Assembly: GCF_000355805.1 (NCBI RefSeq)
Contig: NZ_CM001837.1
Span: 2,012,155-2,076,154, forward strand
Length of the DNA: 64,000 nt
Direction of reading: 5' to 3'
Origin: Dokdonia sp. PRO95
GTDB lineage: Bacteria > Bacteroidota > Bacteroidia > Flavobacteriales > Flavobacteriaceae
The first letter of the stretch is position 1. Each line of letters begins with the position of its first letter. Positions 55,700-59,482 of the stretch are shown piece by piece. Under the pieces are notes generated by a model. It was not told the DNA's origin. It saw only the letters and a program-made list of their open reading frames with translations, and ran no database searches. The translations under genes were made by a program, and so were the position numbers.

Positions 55700-55810
55700 T
55701 CGCAAAAGGCTATCCATATGGATAGCCTTTGCAAAACAATCAGGTTAAATTAAGTATGGTAACAAATCATTACTCAAAACCAAATTGAAAATTTGGGGGA
55801 ATTCAATCTA
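55700..55810 (-). ncRNA. possible fourth, divergent small RNA unit
   Basis: Minus-strand reading gives a hairpin CCAAATT/AATTTGG, the linker GATTGTTTTGCAAAGG (close to the linker GATTGTTTGTAGAGG of the three main units) and a perfect 13-bp-arm terminator (55705-55730) with four Ts. It lacks the 5' ACGnCTTA hairpin and the upstream dyad, so membership is uncertain. The hairpin may instead only end the plus-strand membrane protein gene. Confidence 0.35.
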
Positions 55811-56610: not shown

Positions 56611-56680
56611 AAAAAAGGGTCTCCAAATGGAAACCCTCTACAAACAATCCCGACTTAGAAACCCCTAGCAACTAAGCCGT
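56611..56680 (-). ncRNA. tandem small RNA unit 1
   Basis: About 70 nt. 5' hairpin CGGCTTAG/CTAAGTCG with 13-nt loop containing GGGG, linker GGGATTGTTTGTAGA, terminator AGGGTTTCC/GGAGACCCT plus six Ts. It is preceded by a -7-like box TATCCTTG (56683-56690) and, 24 bp further, the dyad CGGTTTCCCG (56715-56724). The predicted 5' end is set by the -7 box and may be off by a few nt. Confidence 0.72.
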
Positions 56681-56682
56681 GA

Positions 56683-56724
56683 CAAGGATACGAACTTTAC
56701 AAAAAGATGGCGTACGGGAAACCG
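56683..56724 (-). promoter_or_regulatory. promoter of RNA unit 1: dyad CGG-N4-CCG, N24, TATCCTTG
   Basis: The dyad is centred about 32 bp upstream of the -7 box end, i.e. near -41, replacing the -33 element. Same arrangement at units 2 and 3. Confidence 0.65.
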
Positions 56725-56804
56725 CATTGAGTTCATTTTTATTTTTTTTAGTCAATAGATAGTCTTAAGAAAACTATAAATGAACTAGGTTTCGTTTTGT
56801 TTTT

Positions 56805-56816
56805 CTTTCGCGAAAG
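56805..56816. repeat. TTTCGCGAAA palindrome, copy 20 (partly decayed)
   Basis: CTTTCGCGAAAG with right arm extended to AAAGCG; between RNA units 1 and 2. Confidence 0.8.
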
Positions 56817-56843
56817 CGGACTTCTTAGGTGTGTATTTAAAAC

Positions 56844-56911
56844 AAAAAGGCACCCAAGTGGGTGCCCAATGCAAATAATCTTGACCTAGAAACCCCTAGC
56901 AACTAAGCCGT
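56844..56911 (-). ncRNA. tandem small RNA unit 2
   Basis: About 68 nt. 5' hairpin GGCTTAG/CTAGGTC with the same loop TTGCTAGGGGTTT as unit 1, linker AAGATTATTTGCATT, terminator GGCACCC/GGGTGCC with loop ACTT and five Ts. First 25 nt identical to unit 1; the terminator has a different sequence with the same shape. Confidence 0.75.
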
Positions 56912-56913
56912 CA

Positions 56914-56955
56914 CAAGGATACGAGATTTTCTTATAGGTCTTTTACGGATTTCCT
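56914..56955 (-). promoter_or_regulatory. promoter of RNA unit 2: dyad AGG-N4-CCG, N24, TATCCTTG
   Basis: Dyad AGGAAATCCG (56946-56955), exactly 24 bp from the -7-like box (56914-56921). The left arm deviates at one base from CGG. Confidence 0.6.
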
Positions 56956-57024
56956 TTATTTGGGCGTTTTTTATTTTTTTTTAACATTTTTATATTTGGT
57001 GATATTTGATTGTTAGGTCTTTAT

Positions 57025-57103
57025 AAAAAAAAATAGAGGATGCCCGAATGAACATCCTCTACAAACAATCCTTGACTTAAATTCCCCCATGATTTTAAGT
57101 CGT
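57025..57103 (-). ncRNA. tandem small RNA unit 3
   Basis: About 79 nt. 5' hairpin GACTTAAA/TTTAAGTC (8 bp, perfect) with loop ATCATGGGGGAA, linker AAGGATTGTTTGTAG, terminator AGAGGATG/CATCCTCT plus a run of nine Ts. The stem sequence differs from units 1-2 in both arms while pairing is kept, which argues for a selected RNA structure. Starts 74 bp after the response regulator stop codon. Confidence 0.75.
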
Positions 57104-57105
57104 AG

Positions 57106-57147
57106 TAAGATTACAAGATTTTTTAATGATTAGCTTACGGTAAACCG
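57106..57147 (-). promoter_or_regulatory. promoter of RNA unit 3: dyad CGG-N4-CCG, N24, TAATCTTA
   Basis: Dyad CGGTTTACCG (57138-57147, arms CGGT/ACCG), then 24 bp to TAATCTTA (57106-57113). The flanks AATGCGGTTT and CCGTA are shared with unit 1. Confidence 0.65.
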
Positions 57148-57176: not shown

Positions 57177-57842
57177 CTAAATTAGACCTAAATCTTTTAC
57201 TAATGCAACGAGATGGACAGCATTATTAGCTCTAAACTTTACTTTTAATTTGCTCATCTTTTTTTCAATAGCGCTTAGACTCGAGGGAGACACGTTGAGA
57301 GCAACGAGTTCTTTACTTATTTCATCATGAGAGTACCCGTAAGAAAGTAACCGCATGAGGGTAATGTCGTATTCATCTATTTCTAAATCTGCATTATTAG
57401 ACATTGCCATTGCAACGCGTGGAGAAACATAACGTTCTCCATTAAAAACAGTGTTAATAGCCTCTTTAAGATCTGAGATTCCTTCTCGTCCTTTGCATAC
57501 AAAGGCATCTACCCCCGTATCATTATATAGCTGCCTCACACGCTGGAAGCGATCTTCTACAGAATAAATGATAATATTGAGCTCAGGGTGTTCTTTCTTT
57601 AAAGTAGCTGCAAGATCATCTCCAGATGCAAATTGTTGCTTGCGGTGGTCTGCTACAAATGAGAGATCAGAAATTATGAGGTCATAAGGTTTACCATCCA
57701 TTTCTGCTTTTTTAATGAGTTTATATGCCTCATCACAATATTGAACCTGCTTTATGTAGGGAACTTGATAGGTAGTAAGAATGTGTTGTACACCTTCATT
57801 AACGCTTCCTAAATCGTCTGCTATAATTACTTTTTGAAACAT
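57177..57842 (-). CDS. LuxR/NarL-type response regulator
   Basis: 221 residues. Receiver domain 1-125 with acidic pair ADD (about 8-10), phosphorylation Asp in LIISDLSF (about 60), YSVED switch region and Lys in VCKGREG (about 117). HTH domain about 150-215, with SYGYSHDEISKELVALNVSPSSLSAIEKKMSKLKVKF (by ends) corresponding to the DNA-reading helix pair; it is an unusual, Lys-rich version of the LuxR helix. Its start overlaps the kinase stop by one base. The three RNA units begin 74 bp after its stop. Confidence 0.9.
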   Translation of the reverse strand: MFQKVIIADDLGSVNEGVQHILTTYQVPYIKQVQYCDEAYKLIKKAEMDGKPYDLIISDLSFVADHRKQQFASGDDLAATLKKEHPELNIIIYSVEDRFQRVRQLYNDTGVDAFVCKGREGISDLKEAINTVFNGERYVSPRVAMAMSNNADLEIDEYDITLMRLLSYGYSHDEISKELVALNVSPSSLSAIEKKMSKLKVKFRANNAVHLVALVKDLGLI

Positions 57843-59482
57843 TATATCTTGATCTGTGCTTTAAAACCTTGGTTAGACTTACTTTCAAAAGTAATTGTTC
57901 CTTTTAGAGCTTCTATACGGGATTCCGCATTAAGCAAACCATTTTTAGAATTTATAGCGCCGCCTATACCATTATCCTTATATAGAATATGCAATTTTTT
58001 ACCTTCCTTTGAAATCTCAACAAAGGCTATAGTTGCTTTACTATGTTTCTTAGTGTTAGTAATGAGTTCTTGCAATACCCTATAAATAGTGGTCTTGTGG
58101 GCTTTTGGAATTTGATTCCAATCTATCTTGTCGATACCTTTTGTAATGATATTGAGAGAGGGAGTTTTATAACCCACTAACAAATCATTTAAGGATGTTT
58201 GGAAAGATTCTTCTGTCTCAATAAAACTATTTTCTCTAGATATATCTCGAGTTCGACTATAAATGTGCTCTAGATTGTCTAGTAAGTGACTTTCATTGTG
58301 CGTATTAGTTTGCACTTGTGAGATTAGTTTATACACATCATTTGCAACTTCGTCGTGTAATCTCTTTGAGATTTTTGTTTCTGTAATATATACTTGTTCA
58401 AGTCGCTTTCTCCTATGGCGAGATGAAAGAAAAATGATAATAACTACAGTAGTTACTGCAATAAACAAGGCTAAATATTGGTAGCGTGTTTTGTTGATTT
58501 TCTCCTGCTGCGCTATAAGCTCGCTTTCTTTTGCTTGCGTTTGGAAAGTGTCGTATTCATATTTTTGAGCTACATATTTATATTCTTGAAGAGTTTCTAC
58601 TCTGTCTAAGCTGTCCGAGAGTTTTTTAAATACAACGGCGTTTGTTGTAGCACCTATATCAATTGCCAGTCCGAGGGCTTCTAGTTGATATCTAGGGTTG
58701 TTAAGGCTGTAAGCAATATTTCTTGCTATCAGGGCATGTTTTCTAGCTAGTGCTTCTTTGCCTTGCTGATGGTAGTAGTACGATAGATGTCTATTTGTAG
58801 AAAAACTTCCCGTGATATTGTTTTCTTTTTCATTAATGGTAAGGGCTTCTAGCATCAATGTCTCACCTATTGAGTCACCTAACTGCGTAATACTATACCC
58901 ATAGTTGTCATATATAGTAGTCAGTGTGTTGTTATCTTCTATGCGCTCTTTATCCTTCATAAATGGACTTAAGACTTGAGCAGCTTTCTCATAAGATGAG
59001 CGCTCCATATAAATGGTGGCGATATTATTTGAAATGGTAATACTATCTTCTTTTTTTGTGGCCATTGCCAGCGCTTGCTGGTAATTTTCTAGGGCTAGTG
59101 GTAGGTTATTAAGACTTCTATGCAACCTACCCAGCCTATTTCTAAGACGAACGATAGTTTGTGTATCTGTTACAGGAATATCTTTTAAGAGGTTAATGGT
59201 GGTTTTTTCACTCTCAAAAATGTCACCATTATTGAAATATCCTAAGGATATAAGCTCAGAGTAATAGTTGTTACGGGCTGTATCGTTATTAGGGTTTTCA
59301 AGTTGGCGCTTGAAGTAATTAATTCCTGCTGTCACATTCTCTGTGTTTTTTGGATATGCAATAACTCTATAGTAGTGCTGGGTGCTATCTATAGGTGTCT
59401 GTGCCGAAAGTGGTGTTGTCCAAATACCACAAAGCGCGAGCACTAGAAATACAAGTAGGGTTGTAATAGTAGATTTCTGCAT
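57842..59482 (-). CDS. sensor histidine kinase with periplasmic TPR domain
   Basis: 546 residues. Signal peptide 1-27, TPR repeats to about 320 (LGRLHRSLNNLPLALENYQQAL, LGDSIGETLMLEALTINEKE), one transmembrane helix at about 330-349, then a HisKA_3-like helix with RLHDEVANDVYKL (His near 373) and an ATPase domain (N box NTKKHSKA, DNGIGGAINSKNGLLN). This is the two-component architecture common in Bacteroidota whose signal is unknown. The partner regulator follows directly. Confidence 0.9.
   Translation of the reverse strand: MQKSTITTLLVFLVLALCGIWTTPLSAQTPIDSTQHYYRVIAYPKNTENVTAGINYFKRQLENPNNDTARNNYYSELISLGYFNNGDIFESEKTTINLLKDIPVTDTQTIVRLRNRLGRLHRSLNNLPLALENYQQALAMATKKEDSITISNNIATIYMERSSYEKAAQVLSPFMKDKERIEDNNTLTTIYDNYGYSITQLGDSIGETLMLEALTINEKENNITGSFSTNRHLSYYYHQQGKEALARKHALIARNIAYSLNNPRYQLEALGLAIDIGATTNAVVFKKLSDSLDRVETLQEYKYVAQKYEYDTFQTQAKESELIAQQEKINKTRYQYLALFIAVTTVVIIIFLSSRHRRKRLEQVYITETKISKRLHDEVANDVYKLISQVQTNTHNESHLLDNLEHIYSRTRDISRENSFIETEESFQTSLNDLLVGYKTPSLNIITKGIDKIDWNQIPKAHKTTIYRVLQELITNTKKHSKATIAFVEISKEGKKLHILYKDNGIGGAINSKNGLLNAESRIEALKGTITFESKSNQGFKAQIKI

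Follow-up and report, generated by a model that had tools for sequence, protein, structure and literature searches.

A two-component system of Dokdonia with an operator nested in its kinase gene and a multi-copy small RNA family as predicted output

The sensor kinase and response regulator (RR) encoded in a 64-kb stretch of the Dokdonia sp. PRO95 genome (the window, meaning the whole stretch of DNA analyzed) most likely constitute a self-amplifying two-component system whose RR activates a multi-copy family of small RNAs (sRNAs). This reading, drawn from sequence comparisons, is carried by three RNA units beside the RR gene, a fixed distance between operator and promoter, a further operator nested in the kinase gene and held by synonymous codon choice, covariation within the RNAs, and co-occurrence of operator and regulator across the family Flavobacteriaceae. 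The minus-strand order is a TPR sensor kinase, the RR and then three short RNA units, with the following features.

57842..59482, minus strand: sensor histidine kinase gene, 546 aa, with HATPase_c at the cut-off and TPR just under the cut-offs (Pfam).
57886-57926, minus strand: nested operator-promoter, GGAATCCCG-N24-TACTTTTG, within the 3'-terminal part of the kinase reading frame.
57177..57842, minus strand: RR gene, 221 aa, a receiver and a C-terminal domain with remote NarL-type/DUF5932 similarity.
57106..57146, minus strand: operator-promoter of unit 1, GGTTTACCG-N24-TAATCTTA, subtype A.
57025..57101, minus strand: sRNA unit 1, hairpin GACTTAAA/TTTAAGTC with loop GGGGG, linker and terminator; about 77 nt from a predicted 5' end; 43.5 bits with the covariance model R1.
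56914..56954, minus strand: operator-promoter of unit 2, GGAAATCCG-N24-TATCCTTG, subtype B, resembling the operator of a paralogous system.
56844..56909, minus strand: sRNA unit 2, hairpin GGCTTAG/CTAGGTC with loop TTGCTAGGGGTTT, and terminator; about 66 nt from a predicted 5' end; found by R1.
56683..56723, minus strand: operator-promoter of unit 3, GGTTTCCCG-N24-TATCCTTG, subtype A.
56611..56678, minus strand: sRNA unit 3, hairpin GGCTTAG/CTAAGTC with the loop of unit 2, and terminator; about 68 nt from a predicted 5' end; found by R1.

The mechanism we propose is that the TPR-type sensor kinase and the RR form a self-amplifying switch. The phosphorylated RR would bind a (T)(T)ACGGN4CCGTA(A)-like dyad centered at a predicted -41.5 and, from there, would activate TAnnnTTG promoters by replacing the -33 element (class-II activation). 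At the promoter that lies within the final part of the kinase gene, this would boost the RR's own gene; at further promoters the RR would turn on tandem, duplicating sRNAs of 66-77 nt, each consisting of a 5' hairpin that presents a G-run, followed by a short linker and then a terminator. Within this Dokdonia clade the sRNAs would be the chief local output, and in other genera genes for small proteins and lipoproteins would come under the same operators as well. Trans action through the G-run is the probable role of the RNAs, either on C-rich mRNA sites or on an RNA-binding protein.

The closest named relatives of the RR come from Dokdonia MAGs (99% and 94%). Its receiver scored 30.6 bits with PF00072 against a cut-off of 30.2, and D10, D59 and K117 are invariant among 18 RR sequences; we take them to be the acidic residues, phospho-acceptor Asp and Lys of the receiver. 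An earlier sequence-only reading of this DNA had likened the RR to the LuxR/NarL regulators. That relationship stands as a remote one, since a profile of 18 RR relatives matches NarL-family structures such as RcsB and VraR, and also 4zmr, along the receiver and into the C-terminal domain, but the C-terminal region reaches only 20.9 bits with Pfam DUF5932, under the cut-off of 23.7. DUF5932 was matched by 12 of the 18 RR family members, and the GerE (LuxR) helix-turn-helix was absent from the Pfam families matched by these 18.

The same reading had described three units in which a dyad is followed after 24 bp by a -7 box and then by a hairpin, linker and terminator, and all of these elements are present where it placed them. 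The 24-bp distance from dyad to -7 box is exact in all three units and is also conserved near related RR genes. Every unit has the 5' hairpin, the linker (G/A)GATT(G/A)TTTG(T/C)A and an intrinsic terminator. The unit positions hold and the 5' starts move: if the -7 box spans -12 to -5, its position in F. psychrophilum (PMC9723704), +1 would be the G that opens the hairpin (57101, 56909 and 56678), 2 nt inside the starts given earlier, and the dyad center would be -41.5. Folding z-scores are -6.00, -3.02 and -4.76 for units 1, 2 and 3. A dyad centered at -41.5 occupies the position of a class-II activator; a predicted regulator site thus stands at activating distance before the sRNA promoters, as in RR-activated sRNA genes. 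The pattern GGN4CCG-N24-TAnnnTTR occurs four times in the 64-kb window against 0.10 expected (100 dinucleotide shuffles, maximum 2; four sites attained in 0/100), and with N23 it occurs 0 times against 0.09 expected. Three of the four sites precede the RNA units; the fourth lies within the kinase gene, ahead of the RR gene. A slightly different operator pattern searched in the whole own genome gave 8 matches, compared with 2 for the backward control: the three units, the kinase-internal site, one after a paralogous RR, and three others, one of which (L044) resembles a degraded subtype-B site. A short palindrome, CTTTCGCGAAAG, is also present at about 56806-56817 of the window and recurs in L002-L008 (this and related genomes), and repeat matches fall there.

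The geometry is kept in relatives. A search for the RR gene covered 18 genomes of the genus and 299 of the family Flavobacteriaceae, and 117 of the latter had it at E up to 1e-30. The set of 151 loci comprises 25 from the genus search and all 129 family rows at E<=1e-30, 3 being common to both; genus rows left out are L025, L026, L036-L038, one 40% row of G008 without a locus, and weaker rows without a locus. Downstream of these 151 loci, distances of 10-44 bp between GGN4CCG and TAnnnTT(A/G) were scanned, and 126 matches fell at 24, 0 at 23 and 1 at 25. The second commonest spacing was 18 (11 matches), and both 18-bp matches in the subset used for array size share the dyad of a 24-bp match. 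At least one match at spacing 24 was present in 87 of the 151 loci. The other 64 had no GGN4CCG-24 box within 1.5 kb downstream; among them, L020 and L188 are without downstream sequence, a few others break off early, and an ACG or GCG variant is present in L028, L029 and L032. Arrays number three or four units in the closest genomes (3 in the window and L010; 4 in L011-L013) and one in relatives at 70-71% and 59% (1 in L014, L015, L027 and L016). Genomes G001 and G016 and the MAG G008 have an extra unit with the same promoter, distant from the RR genes or on another contig.

The kinase-internal operator was overlooked in the earlier reading. Its dyad begins 84 nt upstream of the RR start codon in the window, and the nested promoter is predicted to drive the RR gene with a 5' UTR of about 39 nt, which would amount to autoregulation. 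A site at spacing 24 was found at this position, 73-127 nt upstream of the RR start, in 117 of 149 loci (the 151 minus 2 without enough upstream sequence or usable RR length); the only other spacing there was 18, with 5 matches. The site overlaps the kinase stretch (A/V/T/M)-E-(N/S/T)-R-...-G-x-(I/L/V)-x-F. We located this stretch by protein and compared its codon choice with that of the RR genes of the same loci as expectation, for 142 kinase genes (7 of the 149 loci having no recognizable kinase motif). G is the third base of the codon preceding E in 127 of 142 against 31.0 expected; Met, whose ATG allows no codon choice, accounts for 14 of both, and where choice exists the figures are 113 of 128 against 17.0. 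The codon after E ends in C in 123 of 142 (41.8 expected), Arg is CGT in 124 of 142 (24.3 expected), and the I/L/V position ends in T in 134 of 142 (69.7 expected). The third base stays constant even where the amino acid varies, a constancy that the protein itself does not call for; the operator is held by synonymous codon choice. Kinases of seven paralogue loci at 39-41% (L028-L033, L019) lack the nested site, and it is present in other genus loci at 39-48% RR identity (L017, L018, L020, L034).

A strict box, TACGGN4CCGTA-N22-TANNNTTG, was searched in the 299 family genomes and found in 86, namely 81 of the 117 that have the RR and 5 of the 182 that lack it (Fisher p 7e-38), a co-occurrence that is partly circular, many strict matches being the kinase-internal site itself and the genomes being related and not independent. 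The backward control of this box gave one match each in 3 of the 299 genomes. The own genome has no strict match because its boxes read GCGG or AAGG. The earlier proposal that the adjacent RR activates the array through the dyad is strongly supported as a prediction by the fixed 24-bp spacing, by the operator in the RR's own operon and by this partly circular co-occurrence.

It is unlikely that the boxes serve another regulator, or both paralogous regulators, with RR adjacency incidental. In 117 of 149 loci the kinase-RR operon itself contains the box, under synonymous constraint, and few genomes without the RR have a strict box; what speaks for that alternative is the strict box in the 5 RR-negative genomes and the fact that unit 2 and three unlinked copies have operators of the paralogous system's type. 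Subtype A, AATGCGGn4CCGTA, is common to units 1 and 3 and the kinase-internal site, the outer units reading AATGCGGTTTnCCGTA. Subtype B, which reads AAATAAAGGAAATCCGTAAAA in unit 2, is a AAGGAAATCCGTAAAA-like form common to unit 2, the middle units of relatives and the unlinked copies. Along 32 bases the unit 2 site is identical to the operator that follows the paralogous RR in G001 (L031), and it differs once within AAATAAAGGAAATCCGTAAAA from that of the own-genome paralogue (L032); this operator is closer to the paralogous system's than to its neighbor's. Because of this match, two sensors may feed one RNA family. The paralogous two-component system is seen in L032 (G000:C1:891569-892231 and downstream), L028-L031 and L019, where a box-24 promoter and an RNA with CCCC(C) runs come after it.

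A covariance model built from seven units (R1) retrieved the close-clade units, the lone units of more distant members and also the unlinked copies, and matched at E up to 0.01 in 13 of 18 genus genomes. In five of these 13 (G005, G007, G009, G013 and G017) the sole R1 matches are weak (26-30 bits), without a box and terminator-like. Among 27 R1 matches (23 distinct), both-sided changes were found in 13 of 15 pairs, and in 5 of 7 pairs of the 5' hairpin. Paired cells amount to 99.1%, against at most 55.1% with partners slid, in an alignment of the 27 matches that was fitted to the structure, a bias in favor. These 27 include two that are probably terminator only (window 55702-55770 and L010 25-93). 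The former, on the minus strand, is a weak match of 28.5 bits, and the one in L010 is similar. Base changes in the hairpin are visible directly in the alignment of close-clade units. The suggestion that structure is under selection thus finds strong covariation behind it, with the 13 of 15 pairs read from an alignment fitted to that structure. None of the RNA units reached a gathering threshold in an Rfam scan of the 64-kb window, which three tRNAs alone did.

We regard it as very improbable that the units, in place of being trans-acting sRNAs, serve as terminators or attenuators or are left over from decay of the RR mRNA 3' UTR. In favor of that view, the RR mRNA would extend into unit 1, the distance from the RR stop to the unit 1 dyad being about 30 nt with no terminator between by eye, and short ORFs of 25 (ATG), 29 and 31 aa (TTG) begin within the three units and extend beyond the terminators. 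Against this, each unit has its own conserved promoter, and the unlinked copies, which lie over 700 kb off or on different contigs, retain promoter and hairpin (L055, L056 and L073 with the same promoter).

Beyond the close clade, the promoters of relatives precede either G-run RNAs or small-protein and lipoprotein genes. A GGG ahead of the terminator was found in 19 of 24 units (RR identity <70%, terminator start before position 75, no long ORF; L016 and L031 excluded) against 11.2 in dinucleotide-shuffled sequences (maximum 17, 500 rounds), a moderate enrichment in that 5 of the 24 lack it and two of the 19, L030 and L019, belong to the paralogous system and have C-runs too. Stems differ in other genera, and the unpaired probability of the G-run is about 0.6 on average in both groups. 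Sorted automatically by a rough rule, the 128 promoter units close to RR genes divide into 59 before ORFs, 50 before an sRNA-like unit and 19 before neither, and with 59 of 128 preceding ORFs the sRNA output is not universal. Several ORFs behind the promoters recur by eye, and among eight scanned one is a DUF6567 lipoprotein, one a small protein of DUF1508, and six have no Pfam match. The DUF6567 lipoprotein gene follows the last unit, behind a fifth box, in L012 and L013, and L084 is alike by eye. For other genera (L101, L120, L126, L132, L133, L167 and others) the promoter stands before recurring small proteins, which are DUF1508 by Pfam for L167 and alike by eye for others; scanned families of 49-68 aa had no Pfam match. 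These ORF outputs suggest an envelope or stress response.

The G-run is the candidate for trans action. The sequence-only reading had it exposed, which agrees with unit 1 (mean unpaired probability 0.80) and only in part with units 2 and 3 (0.55). The complement of the unit 2 and 3 loop, CCCCTAGC, occurs 40 times in the genome compared with 3 for its backward control. Inspected by eye, 2 of the 40 fall on the opposite strand of units 2 and 3, a scattered repeat accounts for at least 9, and the majority of the rest look coding or antisense. Repeats of the kind CTCCCCTAGCCCCTCTTCAAAGAGGGG were seen by eye in the own genome at L210, L213, L222-L224, L226, L249 and L254. One clear start-codon site is found among the 40 places, before an orphan single-domain response regulator.

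L236 1414-1845, minus strand: orphan single-domain response regulator, possible target; site G000:C1:960370-960377.

Here CCCCTAGCAA, ten bases complementary to the loop of units 2 and 3, lies at -14 to -5 before the start codon. CCCCTAG before this start is kept in 5 of 5 genomes with a long match (18 genus genomes searched) and is absent from two orthologues of other genera at 58-60% identity (L259, L260). Loop-target duplex energies were ordinary, 7 to 110 of 300 shuffles being as low (11 pairs). The orphan RR is a weak lead as an mRNA target. A target search for unit 1 with CCCCCATG gave 7 matches, one of them unit 1, against 13 for the control, and an extended match at an apparent start codon was rejected as antisense within a glycosyltransferase-like gene. 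The C-runs in the RNA of the paralogous system (L028-L032, L019) are complementary to the G-runs. An antagonist C-run RNA was rejected as well: its duplex energies are unexceptional (13 to 219 of 300 shuffles as low; 12 pairs, 4 genomes), and G007 has the C-run RNA without a boxed unit of this family.

The sRNAs might instead titrate an RNA-binding protein through their G-run hairpins, as Rsm-like decoys, and not act by base pairing, which we hold possible and the less favored course. The G-run is the main primary-sequence feature across genera while stems vary, the copies are tandem, and the own genome has just the 8 operator-pattern matches. On the other side, none of the 18 genus genomes, 13 being at least 90% complete, yielded CsrA (PF02599; control 3/14), no candidate protein was identified, and the close-clade loop TTGCTAGGGGTTT of units 2 and 3 is invariant save one base in L010, which fits base pairing. 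Hfq was likewise found in 0 of the 18 (13 at least 90% complete; control 5/14). A fuller reading, which we offer tentatively and think doubtful as a whole, is that a single sRNA family receives input from two two-component systems that are paralogous: the adjacent RR would control units 1 and 3 and itself, via the codon-choice operator in the kinase, the paralogous RR would control unit 2 and the unlinked copies via subtype B, and the G-run hairpins would form a flavobacterial post-transcriptional hub without Hfq or CsrA, one target being the orphan RR with CCCCTAG just upstream of its start codon.

Few regulated sRNA circuits in Flavobacteriaceae are described in the literature examined, and no description of this system was found by title or start of abstract in the open-licence literature among the matches listed. 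A conserved regulator family, together with its predicted operator, promoter geometry and RNA output, is readable from sequence and directly testable. An operator in the frame of a kinase, kept by codon choice in more than 100 gene copies, is a clear overlap of regulatory site and protein code, and the predicted autoregulation from such a nested site would be invisible to gene annotation. The rigid 24-bp rule offers a one-line search to map the regulon in flavobacterial genomes.

The known systems that resemble this one do so in part. LuxO in Vibrio is one RR that drives several sibling sRNAs, Qrr1-5, as proposed here for Dokdonia, and the Qrr sRNAs are sigma-54- and Hfq-dependent. The Dokdonia -7 boxes are unlike these, being TAnnnTTR, with Hfq in none of the 18 genus genomes; the earlier comparison with Qrr is therefore apt for the logic of one RR and several sRNAs and does not extend to Hfq or the promoters. 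The Rsm RNAs have G-rich hairpin loops, as here, and their palindrome differs from the Dokdonia dyad. The GacS/GacA-RsmX/Y/Z system of Pseudomonas likewise joins a regulator to a few duplicated sRNA genes with a common palindromic upstream element (PMC2375449, PMC7911923). Unlike it, the Dokdonia system has no CsrA/RsmA found (18 genus genomes), an operator nested in the kinase gene, sRNAs that adjoin the regulator, and protein-coding targets in other genera. Rfp18 of Flavobacterium psychrophilum is likewise a structured sRNA of Flavobacteriaceae, and its third stem-loop is the predicted site of pairing with protease mRNAs (PMC9723704). The GibS Rfam model gave 21.3 bits against a gathering threshold of 115. 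FopS/GibS of Bacteroides thetaiotaomicron is a multi-copy sRNA family of about 65-70 nt, and FopS has a single-stranded 5' seed, canonical sigma-ABfr promoters and several genomic loci (PMC11697453). The same 2025 paper speaks of a possible further regulator of FopS, still unknown. FopS/GibS and the Dokdonia units are alike as multi-copy sRNA families of similar length in Bacteroidota, and the Dokdonia units differ from FopS in their 5' hairpin and in a predicted dedicated operator.
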